Source of the DNA: an uncultured Nocardioidaceae bacterium
GTDB lineage: Bacteria > Actinomycetota > Actinomycetes > Propionibacteriales > Nocardioidaceae
Reading direction: 5' to 3'
Assembly (NCBI GenBank): GCA_902805845.1
Contig: CADCUI010000006.1
Coordinates: 1 to 54,308, forward strand
Length of the DNA stretch: 54,308 nt
Shown here: positions 10,470-53,960 of the stretch, piece after piece
Numbering within the stretch: the stretch's first letter is position 1
How the letters are laid out: each line of letters begins with the position of its first letter
Notes under the pieces: generated by a model
Seen by the model: the letters and a program-made list of their open reading frames with translations, nothing else
The model's database searches: none
Told to the model about the DNA's origin: nothing
Position numbers and translations under genes: made by a program

Positions 10470-11315
10470 ATGCCCCGAATCACCCCGCGACTCGGTTCCA
10501 CGCTCCTGGCCGTCTGCGCCCTCACGGGTGCCGCCCTGGCCGGGACCCAGGTGGGCCACCCTGCCACGGGCGTCGTCGAGGACGACTACCGCCTCGTCCT
10601 CGAGGACAAGCCCACCAACGCCGGCAAGGTGTTCGGGTGGGGCCTGTCGGCCTGGGAGGACGAGTTCCGACCCGAGGTGCGGTTCGACGGCGGGCGCTGG
10701 AAGAGCAACGTCGACGGTCGCGTCGGCCAGCAGATCGGCATGCTCACCCTGCAGGCCGGCACCGAGCCGATGACCTTGCAGACCACCGCGATGGACCACT
10801 TCGCCAGGTACGGCCGCTGGGAGGCGCGGGTGCGGACCCGCGTCTTCGACCGCGGCAACGCGCCGTACCGCGTCTTCTTCGAGCTGGTCCCGGTCGGCGA
10901 GTACCGCTGCGGCGCCAAGAGCCTCGTCATCGGGTCCTACCAGCCCGGCCGCCCCATGGTGGAGGGCTACGTCCGGACCCGGCCGAACAACGAGTTCCAC
11001 TATCAGGTCGACCCGGAGGCGACGACCGAGGAGTTCCACACCTTCGCCATCGAGGTGGCGCCCGACCACGTCACGTGGTTCGTCGACAAGAACGTGATCA
11101 TGACCGAGCGGCGGCCGGAGGCGCTGTCCGGCGTGCGCTACCGGGTCCGCTTCCGGATGGAGGGGAGCCGGGCCCCGCACGAGACCATGAACGAGTCGTG
11201 GCTGCAGATGGACTGGGTCCGCTACTACACCCTCGAGCGCGCCAACGCCCGGCCGATCACCGCGCCGCCGGCGCAGAGGACGACCTACGACGGTGGGTGC
11301 TGGCCCGCGAGCTGA
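10470..11315 (+). CDS. Secreted GH16-fold protein lacking the catalytic motif
   Basis: 281 aa with an N-terminal signal peptide (positively charged MPRITPR, then a hydrophobic Ala/Leu stretch ending near AGTQ). The body shows the concanavalin-like GH16 layout: AWEDEFRPEV, YGRWEARVRTR, FHTFAIEVAPDHVTWFVD and a final LQMDWVRYYTLE. The strand that carries the Glu-x-Asp-x-x-Glu catalytic motif in GH16 reads AKSLVIGSY here, so the nucleophile and acid/base are missing. It is probably a carbohydrate-binding or degenerate homologue rather than a glucanase. A paralogue lies at 15316-16125 on the other strand with the same loss. Confidence 0.82.
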   Translation: MPRITPRLGSTLLAVCALTGAALAGTQVGHPATGVVEDDYRLVLEDKPTNAGKVFGWGLSAWEDEFRPEVRFDGGRWKSNVDGRVGQQIGMLTLQAGTEPMTLQTTAMDHFARYGRWEARVRTRVFDRGNAPYRVFFELVPVGEYRCGAKSLVIGSYQPGRPMVEGYVRTRPNNEFHYQVDPEATTEEFHTFAIEVAPDHVTWFVDKNVIMTERRPEALSGVRYRVRFRMEGSRAPHETMNESWLQMDWVRYYTLERANARPITAPPAQRTTYDGGCWPAS

Positions 11316-15315: not shown

Positions 15316-16125
15316 TCAGCAGGCCCCGGCGTACGAACCTCGGCGTGCCTGCGGCGCAGCGACCGACCGGGCGTTGGGACGCTCGAGCGTGTAGTAGCGC
15401 ACCCAGTCCATCTGCATCCGGGACGGGTTCATCCGGGCGCCCTTCGCGCCGGCGAGTCGGAAGCGCATCTTGAACCGGGTGCCGGAAAGGGCCGCGTCGC
15501 GGCGCTCGGTCATGACCACGCGGGTGTCGACGAACCAGGAGATGCGCTTCTTGGTGACCTCGACCGCGTACGTGTGCCAGGCGTAGTTGCCGAGGTTGCG
15601 CGCCTTGCTGGCGACGAACTGCCGCCGCGGCGCGGTGCGGATGTAGCTGTTCGCCCGCCCTGATCCCACGGTGAAGTCGGAGATGACGATGCTGCGGCCC
15701 CCGCAGCGGTAGTCACCGGCCGGCACCAGCTCCCAGATGACGTGGTACGGCCGGTGGCCACGACCCCACTGCTGGCCCCGGACACGTGCCTCCCACCGGC
15801 CGTAGCGGTGTGCCCGTCCCTTGACGGTGGCGGTCACGGTGCCGCTCCTGGCGGTCCCGTCGAGGGTCAGCATGCCGTTCTGGTTGCGCACCAGCTTGCG
15901 GTGGTTCACCGCCCAGGCCCGCGAGAGCCGCGGCCGGAACTCGTCCTTCCAGGCGGCGAGCCCCCAGCGGTAGACCTTGCCCGCGTTCGTCGGCGACGAG
16001 CTCGAGACCAGGCGCTGCTGGTTTTCGGACACGGTCGAGGGCCGCTCGACGGCGGTCAGGGCGCCCACCAGGAGGGCGACGATGGTCAGAGCGACGGCGC
16101 TGCGTGCATGTCGAAGCGGGGGCAT
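15316..16125 (-). CDS. Secreted GH16-fold protein lacking the catalytic motif (paralogue)
   Basis: 269 aa paralogue of the 10470-11315 product. The N-terminus (MPPLRHARSA then a long Ala/Val/Leu helix) is a signal peptide. Shared blocks: SPTNAGKVYRWGLAAWKDEF, YGRWEARVRG, ELVPAGDYRCGGRS, WFVDTRVVMTERR and MQMDWVRYYTLERPNARS. The GH16 catalytic strand reads RSIVISDF, without the two Glu and the Asp. ATG 16125 is chosen because a -10 box TACGGT ends seven bases upstream; ATG 16152 is possible. It converges with the pro-domain-like gene with only two bases between stops. Confidence 0.82.
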   Translation of the reverse strand: MPPLRHARSAVALTIVALLVGALTAVERPSTVSENQQRLVSSSSPTNAGKVYRWGLAAWKDEFRPRLSRAWAVNHRKLVRNQNGMLTLDGTARSGTVTATVKGRAHRYGRWEARVRGQQWGRGHRPYHVIWELVPAGDYRCGGRSIVISDFTVGSGRANSYIRTAPRRQFVASKARNLGNYAWHTYAVEVTKKRISWFVDTRVVMTERRDAALSGTRFKMRFRLAGAKGARMNPSRMQMDWVRYYTLERPNARSVAAPQARRGSYAGAC

Positions 16126-19138: not shown

Positions 19139-19149
19139 GGCACTCCCGC

Positions 19150-19187
19150 GATCGGTACCCCCGGATGACACCGATCCGGGGACTGCC
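19150..19187. repeat. 38-bp palindromic repeat, left copy flanking the AbiEi/DUF559 gene
   Basis: It matches 20183-20220 at 35 of 38 positions in the same orientation, 1033 bp apart. The conserved right part begins GGATGACACCGATCCGGG. Internal inverted repeats: GATCGGT (19150-19156) with ACCGATC (19170-19176), and CCCCGGAT (19159-19166) with ATCCGGGG (19174-19181), so two alternative hairpins are possible. Confidence 0.85.
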
Positions 19188-19250: not shown

Positions 19251-20201
19251 ATGGAGCTCCGAGACGCCCGTGACCTGCTCGACCGGCAGGCTGGCGTCGT
19301 GGGCCGCCGGCAGCTCCTCGAGCGCGGTGCGTCGACGGCCGACCTGCGCCGGTGGCTCCGACGACGAGAGCTGGTGACCGTCCATCCCGGTGTCTACGTC
19401 AACCACACGGGCCCGCTCACGTGGGCCAACCGGGCCTGGGCCGGGGTCGTCCTCCACTGGCCGGCGGCCCTGAGCCACGAGTCGGCGGTGCACCTCGCCG
19501 GCGAGGTGGTCCACGTCGCCGTGGACGCCAGCCGCACGCCGGTGCTCCGTCGCGGGATCATGCTGCATCTCCTGGCCGATCTCGAGGGCCGCGTGCTGTG
19601 GAACCTCGGCCCGCCGAGGCTGCGGTTCGAGGACGCGCTCATCTCGTTGTGCGCCCAGGCACCGGGTCGCACGGCAGCGCTCGCCCTGGCTTCCGAGGCC
19701 TGCCGGCGCCGGCGTACGACGCCGCAGCGGCTGCTCGGCGAGCTCGAGCACCGTCGCAACGTGCGCCACCGGCGTTGGCTGCGCGACGTGTTCTGCGAGA
19801 CCGCGGAGGGGATCCAGTCCGCGTTGGAGAGCTCGTACCTGCGGAGGGTCGAACGTTCCCACGGGCTGCCCCGACCGCAGCGCCAGCTCCGCGAGCACAC
19901 CGGTGGAGGGGCCGTGGTCTACCGGGACGTCAGCTACGAGCGGTACCGACTGGTCGTGGAGCTCGACGGCCGCATCGGCCACGAGCTCGACGCGGACCGG
20001 TGGCGTGACATGGACCGCGACCTGGACGTGGCGCTCGAGGGCCGGATGACGATCCGCATCGGCTGGCGCCACACCGAGGACCGTCCCTGCGAGACGGCTG
20101 ACCGGCTCGGTCGGGTGCTGCAGCTGCGTGGCTGGCAGGGACGCGTACGCCGTTGCGGCCCCGGCTGCCGCATCGGTCCCCCGATCGGTGCCACGGGATG
20201 A
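19251..20201 (+). CDS. AbiEi-type winged-helix plus DUF559 endonuclease-like protein
   Basis: 316 aa. The N-terminal part (VVGRRQLLERGASTADLRRWL, then LVTVHPGVYVNH) is the winged-helix domain found in AbiEi antitoxins of type IV toxin-antitoxin systems. The middle (ALSHESAVHL) follows AbiEi homologues. The C-terminus has a DUF559/Vsr-like PD-(D/E)XK-type core, with YRLVVELDGRIGHE, a following Asp-rich helix (RDMDRDLDV) and IRIGWRH. No toxin (AbiEii) gene is adjacent. ATG 19251 is the first credible start; SD is poor. The gene is bracketed by near-identical 38-bp repeats, and its stop codon lies inside the right copy. Confidence 0.8.
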   Translation: MELRDARDLLDRQAGVVGRRQLLERGASTADLRRWLRRRELVTVHPGVYVNHTGPLTWANRAWAGVVLHWPAALSHESAVHLAGEVVHVAVDASRTPVLRRGIMLHLLADLEGRVLWNLGPPRLRFEDALISLCAQAPGRTAALALASEACRRRRTTPQRLLGELEHRRNVRHRRWLRDVFCETAEGIQSALESSYLRRVERSHGLPRPQRQLREHTGGGAVVYRDVSYERYRLVVELDGRIGHELDADRWRDMDRDLDVALEGRMTIRIGWRHTEDRPCETADRLGRVLQLRGWQGRVRRCGPGCRIGPPIGATG

Positions 20202-20220
20202 CACCGATCCGGGGACTGCC
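20183..20220. repeat. 38-bp palindromic repeat, right copy
   Basis: It differs from the left copy at three of six central positions only. It carries GATCGGTG (20183-20190) paired with CACCGATC (20202-20209). It overlaps the last 19 bases of the DUF559 gene and precedes the convergent MmcQ gene, so it could also end transcription. Confidence 0.85.
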
Positions 20221-22560: not shown

Positions 22561-22610
22561 GCCCCACGGTGCCACGTCAGCGTGCCGGGCAAACGTCGTC
22601 GACCCCCCGC

Positions 22611-22695
22611 CGAGTCGGCGCTTGTGCACGCCAGAACCCCGTCCGGTCGGCGCTTGTGCACACCCAAGACCCCCGAGTCGGCGCTTGTGCACGCC
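22611..22695 (+). repeat. Dispersed element cluster A: three direct copies
   Basis: Copies of CGAGTCGGCGCTTGTGCAC-GCC start at 22611, 22643 (variant beginning CCGG, ending ACACC) and 22674, so the period is 31-32 bp. The cluster sits between the 3' end of the NDH-2 gene and the start of malQ. The spacer bases between copies differ (agaaccccgt, caagaccccc). Confidence 0.92.
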
Positions 22696-38428: not shown

Positions 38429-39778
38429 ATGTCCCGTGATCCCGGCCTGCCCCGGCGTACCGCACTCCGGCGCCTCGCCCGCGGCGCGGGCGTCGCCCTC
38501 GCCACCGCCGGGCTCGTTGCCTCCACGACCGTCGCCGCCGGCGCCGCGAACCCGGACACCCCCGGCGACTTCACCGGCTACGGCTTCGACCAGTGCCTGG
38601 CCCCGACGCAGAAGGCCATGGACGCCTGGCTCACGAGCTCGCCGTACTGGGCGGTCGGCATCTACATCTCCGGCGACTCCCGAGGCTGCCGCAGCCAACC
38701 GAACCTCACCCCGGAGTGGGTCCGCACCCAGCTGGCCCGAGGCTGGCGGCTGATCCCCATCACCCTCGGTCCGCAGGCCTCGTGCAACCCGAAGTTCCCC
38801 CGCTACGGCAACGACGAGCGCATCGACCCCAGGTCCTCCGACCGCTACCGAGCGGCGCGGCGGCAGGGACGGGCGGAGGCCGAGGACGCCGTCCGGGTGG
38901 CGAAGTCGCTGGGCATCGTCCCCGGCAGCACGCTGTGGTACGACCTCGAGGCCTACAACATCGGCATCACCTCCTGCCGGGAGTCGGCGCTGGCCTTCAC
39001 CTCCGGGTGGACGCGGCGGCTCCACGGTCTCGACTACGTCTCGGGCGTCTACTCCAGCGCCGCCTCCGGCATCAAGGCGATGGATGACGCGCGCGTCAAC
39101 CGGCCCAAGGCCTACACGTTGCCGGACCGGATCTGGATCGCCGACTGGGACCAGGAGGCCAGCACCAGCTCGGAGTACCTCCGCAGCGACGGCTGGCGGC
39201 CGGGTGGACGGATGAAGCAGTACCGGGGCGGCCACAACGAGACCCACGGCGGCGTGACGATCAACATCGACACGAACTGGCTCAACCTGGGTCGCGGGTC
39301 GACGCCCGGTGCGGAGCCGGATCGCTGCGGCGGCGTCGACCTCAGCTACCGGGACTACCCCACCGTGTCCCGGGGCGACACCGACCCGCAGGTCTCCGCC
39401 CTCCAGTGCCTGCTCATCGGCCAGGGGTACCTCGACGGCGAGGTCACCGGGGTCTTCAACAACCGCACCGAGGAGGCGGTCCGGGCCCTGCGTGACCGGC
39501 GTGGCATCGATCCCGGGCGCGCGGCGGGTCCGCGGGTGTGGACCTCGGTGCTCTCGATGGGGTCCAGCCGCCTCATCAAGTACGGCGCCGCGAGTGAACG
39601 TGTCCGCCGGCTGCAGCGGGCCCTCAACGCGGCCACCGACCGGCAGCTGCGGGTCAACGGCATCTTCGAGGGCGACACCACCGCCGCGGTGAAGCGCTAC
39701 CAGTCGATGCGGGGGTACTCGACCACCGGCGTGGTGACGCGCGGCCTCTGGCGGCAGCTCAAGCGCGGCAAGCTCTAG
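38429..39778 (+). CDS. Tat-exported DUF1906 glycoside-hydrolase-like protein with peptidoglycan-binding repeats (paralogue)
   Basis: 449 aa tandem paralogue of the preceding gene. The signal peptide has twin arginines (PRRTALRRLARGAG, then a hydrophobic stretch ending AAGA), consistent with Tat export as known for Rv2525c. DUF1906 core: GDFTGYGFDQC, YWAVGIYISG, GSTLWYDLEAYN, GVYSSAASGI, RIWIADWDQ and KQYRGGHNETHGG. Two C-terminal PG_binding_1 repeats follow (SALQCLLIGQGYLDG; RRLQRALNAAT). SD GGAGG (38417-38421) precedes the ATG, unlike the leaderless first copy. Similar upstream repeats suggest shared control. Confidence 0.87.
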   Translation: MSRDPGLPRRTALRRLARGAGVALATAGLVASTTVAAGAANPDTPGDFTGYGFDQCLAPTQKAMDAWLTSSPYWAVGIYISGDSRGCRSQPNLTPEWVRTQLARGWRLIPITLGPQASCNPKFPRYGNDERIDPRSSDRYRAARRQGRAEAEDAVRVAKSLGIVPGSTLWYDLEAYNIGITSCRESALAFTSGWTRRLHGLDYVSGVYSSAASGIKAMDDARVNRPKAYTLPDRIWIADWDQEASTSSEYLRSDGWRPGGRMKQYRGGHNETHGGVTINIDTNWLNLGRGSTPGAEPDRCGGVDLSYRDYPTVSRGDTDPQVSALQCLLIGQGYLDGEVTGVFNNRTEEAVRALRDRRGIDPGRAAGPRVWTSVLSMGSSRLIKYGAASERVRRLQRALNAATDRQLRVNGIFEGDTTAAVKRYQSMRGYSTTGVVTRGLWRQLKRGKL

Positions 39779-39779
39779 C

Positions 39780-39870
39780 CGAGTCGGCGCTTGTGCACGC
39801 CGAAACCCCGCCGAGTCGGCGCTTGTGCACGGCCGACGGGGCTGGCGCGCGTGCACAAGCGCCGACTCGG
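39780..39870. repeat. Dispersed element cluster B: two direct copies and one inverted copy
   Basis: CGAGTCGGCGCTTGTGCAC at 39780 and 39812 (period 32) and its reverse complement ending at 39870. The third copy can pair with either direct copy to make a long stem. It sits between convergent stops of the DUF1906 gene and purL. Confidence 0.92.
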
Positions 39871-39878
39871 CACAGGGG

Positions 39879-42191: not shown

Positions 42192-42198
42192 GGCGCTC

Positions 42199-42204
42199 AA
42201 TCTA
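42199..42204 (-). promoter_or_regulatory. -10 box TAGATT of purL
   Basis: TAGATT on the minus strand, seven bases before GTG 42191. Repeat cluster C lies just beyond the expected -35. Confidence 0.55.
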
Positions 42205-42237
42205 CGTTGCCGTCGCCGGCCGCCGGACTGCGCGCCG

Positions 42238-42291
42238 GCGTGCACAGGCGCCGACTCGGCACGATCCCGGCGTGCACAAGCGCCGACTCGG
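42238..42291 (-). repeat. Dispersed element cluster C: two copies between divergent genes
   Basis: Both copies are in minus-strand orientation; plus-strand text GGCGTGCACAGGCGCCGACT and GGCGTGCACAAGCGCCGACT, about 32 bp apart, each followed by CGGCACGATC. It lies between purL and the sugar dehydrogenase gene. Confidence 0.9.
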
Positions 42292-42357
42292 CACGATCTG
42301 GGTGGAGGGCGTGGCAGCATGGCGGTCACCCGGGCAGGGGAGCGCAGGAGGAGAACC

Positions 42358-49864: not shown

Positions 49865-51466
49865 CTAGTACCGGAGCGCGGTGGCGGGGCGCTCGAGCAG
49901 CGCGGCGACGTCGGCGAGGAACTGCGAGCCCTTGGCGCCGTCGATGAAGCGGTGGTCGAAGGACAGCGCCAGGGTCGTCACGTCGCGGGGCCGGATCTTG
50001 CCCTTGTGCACCCACGGCTGCTTGCGGACGGCCCCGAACGCCAGGATCGCCGACTCCCCCGGGTTGATGATCGGTGTGCCGGCGTCGATGCCGAAGACGC
50101 CCACGTTGGTGATCGTGAAGGTCCCCCCGGCCATCTCGGCGGGCTGCGTGCGCCCTTCCCGCGCGGTGGCGGTGAGCCGTCCGAGCTCCCCGGCCAGCTC
50201 CACGAGCGAGAGCCGGGCGGCGTCCTTGACGTTGGGAACCACCAGGCCCCGGGGGGTCGCCGCCGCGATGCCGATGTTCACCGACCCCGAGTAGACGACC
50301 TCCTGCGCCTCGTCGTCCCAGTGGGCGTTGACCTCCGGCGTACGACGCATCGCGAGGCACACTGCCCGGGCGAGCACCAGCAGCGGGGAGACCTTGACGT
50401 CCATGAACTCCCGGTCCTGCCGCAGCGAGTCGACCAGCTTCATCGTCCGGGTGACATCGACGGTGATCCACTCGGTCACGTGCGGGATGGTGAAGGCCGA
50501 CTCGACCATCGCCTGGCCCATCATCTTCCGCACGCCCTTGATCGGCTCACGGCGATCGGTCAGCCCGGTCGGCCCGGTCGGCGCTGGTGCCAGCCCAGTC
50601 GGCGCTTGTGCACGCTCCGCCCGCCCAGTCGGCGCTTGTGCACGCGCAAGATCTGCCGAGTCGGCGCTTGTGCGCGCTCCTGCGTGGGACTCGACGTCCT
50701 CCTTCGTCACGACCCCGCCCGGACCGGACGGCGTCACCGTGGCGAGGTCGACGCCGAGGTCGCGGGCGAGCTTGCGGACGGGCGGCTTCGCGAGGACTGC
50801 GCCGACCGACCATGCTCCACCGACCCGCTCCGCGCGCCGGGACGACTCCTCGGGGGTCCCGGCGGTGGGGTCGGCGGTGGGCTGGGAAGTCGGCTCACGT
50901 GCTGGGACGGCCGGGACGGGTTCCTCGTCGGCCGGCACGACCTCGCTGGTGTCGACCCGTCCGGGCGCGAAGGAGCCCTGCACCTGCATCTGGGCGGCCG
51001 ACCCGGCCATCGTGGGTGCGGTCGCCGGGCCTCGACGCGCCCGCCGCCTCGCGGCTCCCGACCGGGGTCCGTACCCGACGAGCGTCTGGTTCTCCCCCCC
51101 GCCCGTGGCCGCCGGGTTCGAGAGGTCCATCGCGTGCACTGGCGCCGACTCGGCGGGGGGTGCGGCGTGCGTTGGCGCCGACTCGGCGGGGGGTGCGGCG
51201 TGCGTTGGCGCCGACTCGGCGGGGGTTCCGTCGTTGACGGAGATGATCGGGGTGCCGACCGGGACGGTCTCGCCCTCGGGCACCAGGATCGCCTCGATGG
51301 TCCCGGCGTACGGCGACGGCAGCTCGACCAGCGACTTCGCGGTCTCGATCTCCACCACGACGTCGTTGACCTTGATGACGTCTCCGACCTTCACCCGCCA
51401 GATGACGATCTCGGCCTCGGTGAGCCCCTCGCCGGGGTCGGGGAGCCTGTACTCGTTGACAGCCAC
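49865..51466 (-). CDS. bkdC: Dihydrolipoamide acyltransferase (E2) of 2-oxo-acid dehydrogenase, linkers invaded by repeats
   Basis: 533 aa. Lipoyl domain (1-78) with lipoyl-Lys44 in ETAKSLVEL, peripheral-subunit-binding domain (about 225-262, VRKLARDLGVDLATVTPSG), and catalytic acyltransferase domain with His505 and Asp509 in SFDHRFIDG. One lipoyl domain only. Two linkers are odd: residues 82-112 are three units of PAESAPTHAAP, and residues 265-300 hold RTSADSADLA and two RAQAPTG units. Both arise from copies of the dispersed 20-bp element and are read in different frames. The context with E1 genes and vdh suggests branched-chain substrates; pyruvate cannot be excluded. Confidence 0.9.
   Translation of the reverse strand: MAVNEYRLPDPGEGLTEAEIVIWRVKVGDVIKVNDVVVEIETAKSLVELPSPYAGTIEAILVPEGETVPVGTPIISVNDGTPAESAPTHAAPPAESAPTHAAPPAESAPVHAMDLSNPAATGGGENQTLVGYGPRSGAARRRARRGPATAPTMAGSAAQMQVQGSFAPGRVDTSEVVPADEEPVPAVPAREPTSQPTADPTAGTPEESSRRAERVGGAWSVGAVLAKPPVRKLARDLGVDLATVTPSGPGGVVTKEDVESHAGARTSADSADLARAQAPTGRAERAQAPTGLAPAPTGPTGLTDRREPIKGVRKMMGQAMVESAFTIPHVTEWITVDVTRTMKLVDSLRQDREFMDVKVSPLLVLARAVCLAMRRTPEVNAHWDDEAQEVVYSGSVNIGIAAATPRGLVVPNVKDAARLSLVELAGELGRLTATAREGRTQPAEMAGGTFTITNVGVFGIDAGTPIINPGESAILAFGAVRKQPWVHKGKIRPRDVTTLALSFDHRFIDGAKGSQFLADVAALLERPATALRY
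50574..50677 (+). repeat. Dispersed element cluster D inside the E2 gene (second linker)
   Basis: Copies at about 50574 (degenerate, GGTCGGCGCTGGTGCC), 50595-50615, 50625-50645 and 50656-50677, all plus-strand orientation, antisense to the gene. Core CAGTCGGCGCTTGTGCACGC. Spacing is 30-32 bp. It encodes E2 residues about 265-300. Confidence 0.9.
51132..51220 (-). repeat. Dispersed element cluster E inside the E2 gene (first linker)
   Basis: Three copies, minus-strand CCGAGTCGGCGCC then A/G-rich variants of TGTGCACGC (ending ACGCACGC or AGTGCACGC). Exact 33-bp period, so the reading frame is preserved and yields 11-residue repeats. It encodes E2 residues 82-112. Confidence 0.9.
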
Positions 51467-51514: not shown

Positions 51515-52501
51515 TCAGAAGGCCAGTGACCGATCGACCGCGTCGAGCACACGGTCGAGGTCCGGCAGCCACTCCTCCTCCACCCGCGCCGGGGGATACG
51601 GGGTGTCGAAGCCGCCGACCCGCAGCACCGGGGCCTCGAGGGAGTAGAAGCACTCCTCGGTGATCCGGGCGGCCAGCTCGGCGCCGATGCCGAGGTTCAC
51701 GTGCGCCTCGTGGGCGACGACGGCTCGACCGGTCCGGCGTACCGAGTCCAGGACCAGACCCATGTCCAGGGGCGACAGCGTGCGCAGGTCGATCACCTCG
51801 ATGCTGCGGCCCTCACCGGCCGCCGCCTCCGCGGAGGCCAGGCACACCTTGACCATCGGACCGTAGGCCAGCAGCGTCAGCTCGTTGCCGGCGCGGACGA
51901 CGCGGGAGGCGAACAGCGGGTAGACCGCCGAGCTGTCGGCCGCCTCGTCGATCTCGGCCTTGTCGGCGTGGTACTGCCGCTTCGGCTCGAGGAAGATCAC
52001 CGGGTCGTCGGCGGCGATGGCCTGCTGGATCATCCAGTAGCCGTCGATCGGGTTCGAGCACACGACGACCTTGAGCCCCGGTGTGTGCGCGAACTGCGCC
52101 TCCGGGGACTCGCTGTGGTGCTCGACCGCGCCGATGCCGCCGCCGAACGGGATCCGGATGACCATCGGCATCCGCACCTTGCCCTGACTGCGGAAGTGCA
52201 GCTTCGCGACCTGGCTGACGATCTGGTCGTACGCCGGGTAGACGAACCCGTCGAACTGGATCTCGCAGACCGGCCGGTAGCCGCGGATCGCCAGTCCCAC
52301 GGCGGTGCCGATGATCCCCGACTCCGCCAGCGGCGAGTCGATGACGCGGTCCTCGCCGAAGTCCTTCTGCAGCCCGTCGGTGATCCGGAAGACACCGCCG
52401 AGCTTGCCGACGTCCTCGCCCATGATCAGGACCTTGGCGTCGTCCTCCATCGCCCGTCGGAGCCCCGCGTTGAGCGCCTTGGCCAGCGTCATCTTCGTCA
52501 T
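51515..52501 (-). CDS. bkdB: 2-oxo-acid dehydrogenase E1 component, beta subunit
   Basis: 328 aa ThDP-dependent E1 beta (transketolase pyrimidine and C-terminal domains). Blocks: LIMGEDVGKLGGVFRIT with the ThDP-activating Glu, DSPLAESGIIGTAVGLAIRG, EIQFDGFVYPAYDQI, RIPFGGGIGAVEHHSESPEA and a C-terminal VVAHEAHVNLGIGAELAA. Sequence features (EHHSESPEA) are closest to the branched-chain/acetoin group. It overlaps the E1 alpha stop (ATGA) and is 48 bp upstream of E2. Confidence 0.92.
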   Translation of the reverse strand: MTKMTLAKALNAGLRRAMEDDAKVLIMGEDVGKLGGVFRITDGLQKDFGEDRVIDSPLAESGIIGTAVGLAIRGYRPVCEIQFDGFVYPAYDQIVSQVAKLHFRSQGKVRMPMVIRIPFGGGIGAVEHHSESPEAQFAHTPGLKVVVCSNPIDGYWMIQQAIAADDPVIFLEPKRQYHADKAEIDEAADSSAVYPLFASRVVRAGNELTLLAYGPMVKVCLASAEAAAGEGRSIEVIDLRTLSPLDMGLVLDSVRRTGRAVVAHEAHVNLGIGAELAARITEECFYSLEAPVLRVGGFDTPYPPARVEEEWLPDLDRVLDAVDRSLAF

Positions 52502-53724
52502 CGGGACCCCTCCGCGTTCTCCAGCGCACCCGTCGAGGCCGCCGCTGCGGCGTCCTCGAAGCTGTCCAGGTAGTCGGCGTAGGACGACCGCTGGTCGGCC
52601 AGCTCGGGGGTCTGCTCGGCGTACACCGCGTCGAAGACGTCGAGGATGTGCGGGTCGGGCATCGACCGGCAGCCGGCTCGCAGCCGCTCGCCGAGCTCCT
52701 CGGCCTCCGCGTCGACGGCCTCGAGGAACTGCTGGTCGACCAGGCCATTTCTTGTCAGATACACCTTGACGCGCTGGATCGGGTCCTTGAGCTTCCAGTT
52801 CTCGAGGTCCGAGGAGAGCCGGTAGCGGGTCGGGTCGTCAGTGGTGGTGTGGGCACCCATCCGGTAGGTGTAGGCCTCCACGAACGTCGGTCCCTGCCCC
52901 TCACGGGCGCGCTGGAGCGCAGCCTGGGTGACGGCGTAGGTGGCCAGCACGTCGTTGCCGTCGACGCGTACGCCGGGAAAGCCGAAGCCGAGCGCCCTTT
53001 GGTAGAGCGGGATCCTCGACTGTCGCTCGATCGGCTCGGAGATCGCCCACTGGTTGTTCTGGCACAAGAACACCACGGGTGCGTTGTAGGAGGCGGCGAA
53101 GATGAACGCCTCGTTGACGTCGCCCTGGCTGCTGGCCCCGTCCCCGAAGTAGGCGACGACCGCGGCGTCGCGGTCGGGGTCGCCGGTGCCCACGCTGCCG
53201 TCGCGCTGCACCCCCATCGCGTAGCCGGTCGCGTGCAGCGTCTGGGCGCCGATGACGATCGTGTAGAGGCCGAAGTTGTGCTCGTGCGGGTCCCAGGAGC
53301 CTTGGTCCACACCACGGAACAGCCCGATCAGCTGCAACGGGTCGAGCCCCCGGCACCAGGCCACCCCGTGCTCGCGGTAGGTCGGGAACACGAAGTCCTG
53401 CGGCCGGAGCGCGCGGCCCGAGCCGATCTGGGCGGCCTCCTGTCCGAGAAGCTGCGCCCAGATGCCCAGCTCACCGTGGCGCTGCAGCGCGGTGGCCTCG
53501 ACGTCGATGCGCCTGGTCAGCACCATGTCGCGGTAGAAGCCCCGGACGAGCGCCGCCTCCTCGTCGGGGGACATGCCCTCTCCGAACGAGAAGGAGCCGT
53601 GCTCGACGCGCTCCCCCTCCGGCGTCAGCAGCTGCACGAGCTCGGGGCCACCGTCGGCGTCCGACCGCTGCGAGCCCTGCACCAGCTGGGGCCCGAACTG
53701 GCTCGCGATGACGTCACTGCTCAC
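52498..53724 (-). CDS. bkdA: 2-oxo-acid dehydrogenase E1 component, alpha subunit
   Basis: 408 aa. The ThDP-Mg motif runs from GDGASSQGDVNEAFIFAASY to VFLCQNNQWAIS. The upstream region has TRRIDVEATALQRHGELGIW, LLGQEAAQIGSGRAL and FPTYREHGVAWCRG; the phosphorylation-loop region is AYTYRMGAHTTTDDPTRYR. An N-terminal extension of about 60 residues before the fold is of the size usual for actinobacterial BkdA. GTG 53724 has GAGGAG upstream. First gene of the bkd operon. No E3 gene is present here, so a shared lipoamide dehydrogenase elsewhere is expected. Confidence 0.92.
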   Translation of the reverse strand: MSSDVIASQFGPQLVQGSQRSDADGGPELVQLLTPEGERVEHGSFSFGEGMSPDEEAALVRGFYRDMVLTRRIDVEATALQRHGELGIWAQLLGQEAAQIGSGRALRPQDFVFPTYREHGVAWCRGLDPLQLIGLFRGVDQGSWDPHEHNFGLYTIVIGAQTLHATGYAMGVQRDGSVGTGDPDRDAAVVAYFGDGASSQGDVNEAFIFAASYNAPVVFLCQNNQWAISEPIERQSRIPLYQRALGFGFPGVRVDGNDVLATYAVTQAALQRAREGQGPTFVEAYTYRMGAHTTTDDPTRYRLSSDLENWKLKDPIQRVKVYLTRNGLVDQQFLEAVDAEAEELGERLRAGCRSMPDPHILDVFDAVYAEQTPELADQRSSYADYLDSFEDAAAAASTGALENAEGSR

Positions 53725-53960
53725 CCTGCACTCCTCGGTTCGGTCGACGACCGGGATCTCCGGCACCGGCTGGTGGAGCCCTGCCCGGCGACCGGCGCGG
53801 GGGTGGTGCGCGGGCTCACGAGCAGTGTGACCGCTGCCACAGCACCGGCCGCTCACACGGTACCGGAGCGCGGACGAATGCCGCGAGCCGGGCAACGTCC
53901 CCGTCGAGGGCGTGGGAACGACCAGAGGCTGCCCTCGGGCGGCCGCTGCAGAGCGGGCGG

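Follow-up and report, generated by a model that had tools for sequence, protein, structure and literature searches.

A REP-like dispersed repeat has probably entered both linkers of a Nocardioidaceae E2 acyltransferase at the DNA level

How does the same short repeat come to be translated in different frames in the two linkers of one dehydrogenase subunit? The gene that raises this question lies in a 54,308-bp stretch of DNA from an uncultured Nocardioidaceae bacterium (the window, that is, the whole stretch analyzed), which is part of a host genome of 3.28 Mb in 91 contigs (G000). It is an intact minus-strand open reading frame of 533 aa (49865-51466), assigned as an E2 acyltransferase from its homologues and its Pfam domains: lipoyl (residues 6-75), E3-binding (224-259), and catalytic 2-oxoacid dehydrogenase (304-531). 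Upstream of E2 on the same strand are the E1 beta gene (51515-52501) and the E1 alpha gene (52498-53766), both named from a reading of their translations rather than a family search, and from this gene neighborhood we infer that the E2 is of the bkdC type. The nearest named E2 sequences are from Nocardioidaceae, and the median length of 42 other extracted E2s is 481 aa, versus 533 aa here. An AlphaFold model of the window E2, computed from a 20-sequence alignment (mean pLDDT 69), has pLDDT values below 50 at residues 83-103, 105-108, 110-222, and 268-300, and the two repeat arrays described below fall almost entirely inside these stretches.

The repeat, designated F1, forms one array in each linker. 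In linker 1 (51134-51220, minus strand, sense to E2; residues 81-111), three units (51134-51154, 51167-51187, and 51200-51220) with middle bases CAGT/CAAC/CAAC follow an exact 33-nt period and encode TPAESAPTHAAPPAESAPTHAAPPAESAPVH. The linker 2 array (50593-50675, plus strand, antisense to E2; residues 264-297) consists of three units with a TTGT middle (50593-50613, 50623-50643, and 50655-50675) at spacings of 30 and 32 nt, which are read in two frames as ARTSADSADLARAQAPTGRAERAQAPTGLAPAPT; next to it, at about 50577-50592 on the plus strand, is a degenerate fourth unit that reads APAPTG and has three mismatches in a 16-mer. An earlier, sequence-only reading of this DNA had reported the element in both linkers, with one linker 2 copy read as SADSAD and two as RAQAPTG and with a period of exactly 33 bp in the E2 cluster. 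Both arrays are indeed present, the linker 2 peptides are confirmed as TSADSA (once) and AQAPTG (twice), and the period holds for the linker 1 units; the residue ranges then given, 82-112 and 265-300, identify the right linkers but are off by one to three residues. What that reading missed is that the arrays have opposite orientations, belong to different F1 sequence subfamilies, and are subject to the frame effect of a 32-nt period.

Three frames of F1 are used in E2 (AESAPTHA, TSADSA, and AQAPTG), and those not used would read PSRRLCT, RVGACA, and VHKRRLG; the consensus unit in tandem is stop-free in all six frames. The natural period of 32 nt alone shifts adjacent units into different frames, and neighboring linker 2 units change frame because of such a 32-nt step. 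Comparison of codon bias inside and outside the insertions, which the earlier reading had suggested, reveals a GC3 of 46/65 codons (0.71) in the F1 units versus 437/468 (0.93) in the rest of E2 (p = 6e-7) and versus 93/108 in the remaining linker codons (p = 0.018). In the window as a whole, 14 matches to an F1 16-mer are observed at three or fewer mismatches, versus 1.66 expected.

F1 is a 22-nt core, GCCGAGTCGGCGC-TTGT-GCACG, that recurs with a period of about 32 nt. The core (GCCGAGTCGGCGCTTGTGCACG) is near invariant except for four middle bases and, to a lesser degree, the first four, and harbors an 11-nt near-palindrome; the 10-nt spacer between cores varies around CCCAAACCCC. The host genome contains 156 copies at two or fewer mismatches, with zero in the reversed control. 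To describe these copies, we assembled a sample of 260,044 bases (the window plus 40 stretches of the host genome), chosen from the matches listed, which were mostly exact; about 14 of the 156 units fall outside it. At four or fewer mismatches, the sample contains 160 units, 87 of them exact (reversed control, 0), and adjacent units in the same orientation are spaced by 32 nt in 72 of 82 pairs; a 33-nt spacing is found in only three of the 82, two of which are in E2. All but one of the 50 clusters consist of plus units followed by minus units, and just one cluster has a single unit. The commonest middles among the 160 units are TTGT (130), TTAC (7), CAAC (5), and CAAT (4). We considered whether the CAAC middle in linker 1 is a coding adaptation, in which TTGT is replaced by CAAC and Leu-Val by Pro-Thr; CAAC units are also present in two intergenic stretches (L102 and L107), so the Pro-Thr reading derives from the subfamily and the adaptation is rejected.

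The distribution of F1 with respect to genes, as called by an in-house codon-model gene caller, is highly skewed. In the sample, 48 of the 50 clusters are intergenic although ≈90% of these bases are coding, and the other two are the E2 linkers; single units overlap called genes at L087 913, L089 2575 (gene edges), and L108 2683 (four mismatches). For same-strand arrays, the nearest upstream gene end is a same-sense stop in 54 of 78 cases (52 of 76 excluding E2). Over the 46 intergenic clusters with a called gene on both sides, a stop is faced in sense orientation by 49 ends and in antisense by 13 (p = 5e-6). The distance to the stop is 7 nt or less, overlaps included, for 34 sense ends; random placement of the clusters in these gaps, repeated 5000 times, gives a mean of 17.3 and a maximum of 25. 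Convergent gaps account for 21 of 46 gaps with F1 versus 24 of 187 without.

The intergenic clusters in the window include a plus-strand +++ cluster (22609-22692), a ++- cluster with units on both strands (39778-39871) between convergent genes (gap 39779-39878), the first G of which supplies the last base of the left gene's TAG stop, and a minus-strand -- pair (42240-42292) between divergent genes (gap 42192-42357). At the convergent gap, two same-genus genomes (G003 and G004) have a different sequence with hairpins discernible by eye, and a third (G002) has a different neighboring gene. The -- pair is missing in all three of these relatives, with an 11-nt partial match in G002, and its flanks are too diverged across the three for a target-site duplication to be read. 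Two further repeats occur in the window. One is a 44-nt direct repeat (19144-19187 and 20177-20220; 91% identical) with an 8-bp stem (CCCCGGAT / ATCCGGGG), the second copy of which reaches into the 3′ end of the intervening gene; this is possibly another stop-proximal hairpin repeat. The other is an 86-nt inverted repeat (11187-11272 and 15347-15432) whose arms, separated by about 4 kb, are 84% complementary and each lie in a called gene near its end.

Among relatives, F1 is sporadic. When the middle bases are left free, 15 of the 245 other genomes examined from the order contain the pattern, 11 of them only once; G198, G137, G036, and G162 contain 23, 19, 9, and 6 such copies, respectively, with a frequent ATCT middle, and four same-genus genomes together contain a single copy. 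G032 has 67 matches, with a variant ending in GTGTCC frequent. Alignment with other E2s, another comparison that the sequence-only reading had called for, finds no full unit in the 42 others, same-genus species included: none contains a free-middle unit at one or fewer mismatches, a TTGT unit at three or fewer mismatches is absent from loci L009-L064, and by inspection F1 is absent from the aligned linkers of the four same-genus E2s (76-80% identity). The 13-nt core GCCGAGTCGGCGC occurs exactly in linker 1 of L024 (E2 residue 78) and L028 (E2 residue 73), on opposite strands and standing alone without the remainder of the unit, and may be either a relic or a chance match. When the other 42 E2 loci are scanned with free middle bases at three or fewer mismatches, 14 matches appear versus 9 in the reversed control, which is background level, and thus only these exact 13-nt matches are noted.

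We consider it probable that a REP-like F1 element entered E2 at the DNA level and that the linkers of this gene are a recurrent landing site in the Nocardioidaceae. F1 would be a REP-like short dispersed repeat that usually sits in sense orientation within a few bases after a stop codon, organized mostly in arrays of two to six units, each comprising a 22-nt core and a spacer of about 10 nt. Two arrays differing in subfamily and orientation were presumably inserted into E2 separately and would have survived because the linkers are disordered and tandem F1 is stop-free in all six frames. The unusual spacings (33 nt in linker 1; 30 and 32 nt in linker 2) appear to have kept the reading frame open, and only Ala/Pro/Ser-rich frames are seen, which suggests filtering for a harmless peptide. 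Arrival at the DNA level followed by such filtering would account for both orientations, the several frames, the foreign codons, the two subfamilies, and the lack of full units in relatives. The earlier proposal of an origin at the DNA level is supported by a high-copy, mostly intergenic repeat with two orientations, three frames, and foreign codon usage in E2 and by the lack of a full unit in the 42 other E2s, and its companion, tolerance in disordered linkers, by the low pLDDT over nearly all of both arrays. Neither excision nor a duplicated target site was observed, nor was a transposase found.

That these linkers are a repeated landing site is suggested by other repeat families, F2, F5, and F6, which occupy the corresponding linkers in E2s from other species. 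F2 is a 44-nt palindrome starting ACGTCATACGAA, F5 has the form GGTTTCGAGAC-hairpin-CCTCAACC, and F6 is GGTCGAGCCTGTCGAGACC. A generic inverted-repeat scan of 35 E2s (those other than the window E2) is weak, with p ≤0.02 reached in linker 2 of 5/35, linker 1 of 1/35, and neither the middle segment nor the E3-binding domain of any; we therefore used family-specific covariance models of F2 and F5, built after reading the linker DNA of relatives. The F5 model comprises 15 distinct copies in which 5 of 13 pairs change on both sides, a score equally high in 5 of 500 shuffles, with some inner pairs broken in four to six copies. Searching 43 sources at E values up to 0.05 gives F5 matches in the E2s of L011, L014, L028 (twice), L029, L030, L040, L056, and L158 and F2 matches in those of L016, L017, L019, L025, L027, L155 (twice), and L156. 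All in-E2 matches fall in linkers, aligning with residues 82-103, 150-217, or 263-302 of the window E2; the weak F5 matches in L056, L014, L158, and L170 (E 0.006-0.024) could be chance. The L155 (G055) E2 holds an F2-like variant twice, ATSSPPAAGATARDDV and ATSSPPVAGATARDDV, at positions that align with window residues 191-217 and 289-297. In four species (L175 of G198, L011, L028, and L019), the stop codon of E2 itself is followed after about 9-17 nt by an F1, F2, or F5 element.

Genome-wide counts cover F2, F3, F5, and F6 in genomes other than that of L024. F2 has 34 exact arms in G106 (the genome of L017, Marmoricola sp. URHB0036) and is matched in 11 of 33 genomes; F5 has 59 copies in G128 (the genome of L040, Nocardioides lianchengensis), 71 in G107, and 0 in G000, and matches in 15 of 23 genomes; F6 has 28 copies in G002, one inside its E2 linker 1, and matches in 12 of 17 genomes, with reversed controls of 0 for all three families. 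F3 is low copy, with two strict places in its genome, and F4 was found in L020. In stretches of G106 (L129-L148), F2 appears as a near-palindrome of 44-50 nt, GGGACGTCATACGAA...TTCGTATGACGTCCC, and accounts for those 34 exact arms in one genome; in those of G128 (L109-L128), the ends of F5 are constant and its stems vary by compensatory change, and copies close to gene ends give C-terminal tails bearing VVEEVAQ(Q/R)PSRNP in L114 and L115. Both families are largely intergenic in these samples: 27 of 34 F5 copies, with seven in called genes (four at the ends of genes and three deep in the interior of two, namely one in L123, where the site is a Gly/Ser-rich stretch, and one in L124, which may be two genes fused by the gene caller), and 18 of 21 F2 copies, with three in called genes, one being E2 itself and two being other genes. 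E2 is not the sole coding target of F2, F5, and single F1 units.

The 34 loci fetched solely by E2 similarity (240,315 bases, 92.6% called coding) allow E2 to be compared with its neighbors. F2 and F5 occupy 25 places in them: 12 intergenic, a class that allows up to 20 nt of overlap with a gene end, 13 in E2 (12 of 34 genes), and none in other genes; non-domain E2 DNA makes up 15.1 kb, or 6.8%, of the coding DNA. Since F2 and F5 were picked after being seen in E2 linkers, their density in E2 is conditional on that choice. Matches in 12 of 34 E2s make F1 in the window E2 one case of a recurrent process. Among PF00198 genes at 30 loci from 10 genomes, in-frame matches are found in 5 of 10 E2s of the window type and in 0 of 20 others; one of the five is weak (E 0.023), several of the 10 genomes were chosen for known E2 matches, and contig ends truncate some of the loci. 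A 40-member E2 tree, built from domain columns only (leaving out L150 and L154, with aligned linkers equal to those of L009 and L010, and the distant L157-L159), places different families in sister E2s: F5 in L014 and F2 in L017, F5 in L040 and F2 in L156, and F6 in L024 and F5 in L030. Likewise, F1 of the window and F6 of G002 fall in one small clade. Seven changes are needed for each of F2 and F5 (in each case at least five forced by strong branches among the labeled rows) and 11 for any element, and family labels cluster no more than shuffled labels. Part of F2 may have been inherited from an ancestor and lost in some lineages, as several species have it at a similar position and with a similar peptide. 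In L026 and L056, the called E2 start is too far upstream; trimmed sequences were used for the non-domain length and untrimmed ones for the median length.

The repeated targeting of E2, with neighboring genes spared, would reflect either unusually tolerant linkers, the reading that we prefer, or insertions that are favored. The boldest form of the latter holds that E2 linkers throughout the Nocardioidaceae act as an adaptive landing pad, repeatedly capturing active repeats that lengthen and retune the swinging arm; we regard this as unlikely, and if true it would mean that unrelated selfish DNA is repeatedly made into protein at a single site. That individual insertions were selected, beyond being tolerated, for giving longer or stiffer swinging-arm linkers we hold to be quite unlikely as well. 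An insertion density in non-domain E2 DNA (13 per 15.1 kb) at least as high as in intergenic DNA (12 per 17.8 kb) across the 34 loci, at least 11 presence changes on the E2 tree, and the restriction of in-frame matches to this E2 type among the 30 loci of 2-oxoacid dehydrogenase genes are consistent with such selection, but 19 of 34 E2s have no recognized element, the families and in part the 10 genomes were picked for E2 matches, and some of the loci are truncated.

It is very improbable that the E2 arrays are kept as RNA elements for processing, attenuation, or termination. The sense placement of F1 behind stop codons, the folding of an inverted F1 pair into a hairpin of -53.9 kcal/mol and of a three-unit TTGT array better than shuffles (z = -3.4), and the compensatory changes in F5 stems fit such a role; however, the linker 2 array is antisense, the linker 1 array folds just modestly better than shuffles (z = -2.1), a terminator within an open reading frame would be harmful, and the repeat family changes between species. 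Rfam returns nothing in the window above the gathering score except three tRNAs, and four sub-threshold matches are in L128, L132, L024, and L106. Equally remote is a protein-level origin, in which an Ala/Pro-rich peptide was duplicated in tandem, lengthening the linker, and the resemblance of its DNA to an intergenic repeat is secondary: linker 1 is a clean 33-nt tandem of near-identical units, as expected from local duplication, and relatives have Ala/Pro-rich linkers of variable length, one of which (L024) includes AESAP, yet the units correspond to a repeat that has 156 copies in the genome, mostly between genes; they occur in both orientations and are read in three frames, have the deviant GC3 noted above, and are absent from same-genus E2s. 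The same repeat peptides encoded by unrelated DNA in distant E2s, named in the sequence-only reading as evidence for such an origin, were not found, with the caveat that AESAP in L024 is read from its exact 13-nt core match. Local duplication in linker 1 after arrival at the DNA level is compatible with the DNA-level reading, and likely.

On the preferred reading of DNA-level arrival in tolerant linkers, the E2 linkers constitute a natural, repeatable experiment in which noncoding repeats become protein in one gene, in dozens of species, and from several repeats, with the untouched E2s of close relatives as a control. Repeat insertion would help explain why the linker peptides of close relatives look unrelated, and it carries a warning that peptides such as VVEEVAQRPSRNP, VEPVET, and AESAPTHA come from repeats and should not be taken for motifs. 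F1, F2, and F5 add dispersed-repeat families to those of the Actinobacteria, and the sense, stop-proximal placement of F1 makes it a candidate 3′-end element.

How does F1 compare with known systems? A literature search, mostly of papers outside subscription, returned no account of F1, F2, F5, or repeats in E2 linkers. The GTAG/CGTC-tagged REPs, as described by Di Nocera et al. 2013 (PMC3733652), are short stem-loops that are mostly intergenic, lie close to 3′ ends, and are frequent in convergent gaps; some form inverted pairs, and some are intragenic; the main text of that paper uses neither of the words Nocardioides and Actinobacteria. Like REPs, F1 is short, high copy, mostly intergenic, and close to gene 3′ ends; unlike the tagged REPs, its 22-nt units form same-strand arrays with a 32-nt period, have no GTAG or CGTC tag at the core ends as read from the sequence, and come with no Y1 transposase (PF01797) found in G000, G032, or G036, an absence that is less than certain given that G000 is 96% complete. 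REPINs, which are mobilized by RAYTs, are characterized in part of PMC3116915 as inverted pairs of a conserved short unit, with high copy number and variants. F1 shares these features, but it occurs mostly as head-to-tail arrays (82 same-orientation pairs) with inverted pairs a minority, and with no PF01797 protein in the same three genomes an assignment of F1 to RAYT/REPIN is rejected. By description only, F1 can also be likened to the small dispersed repeats of cyanobacteria, which have very short units and mobile-like behavior. These repeats are named in a section of PMC3116915.

Intragenic insertions of REP-like elements are already known, and a recurrent E2-linker target is not found in the literature searched. 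The authors of PMC3733652 report that two Xanthomonas species carry REPs at nearly one position in recB and suggest that flexible linkers may render intragenic insertions neutral. The same source, as far as it covers the Rickettsia elements, describes RPE-1, RPE-4, and RPE-6 as dispersed repeats found in frame in protein genes that are likely still functional, with RPE-4 and RPE-6 being CGTC-tagged and present in many genes. As with the RPEs, the same F1 DNA is both intergenic and in frame within a gene, where its translation is predicted. Unlike RPE-4 and RPE-6, F1 has neither tag, and in the sample whole F1 clusters are inside one gene only; and unlike the RPEs, it is here different repeat families in different species that have settled on the same gene.
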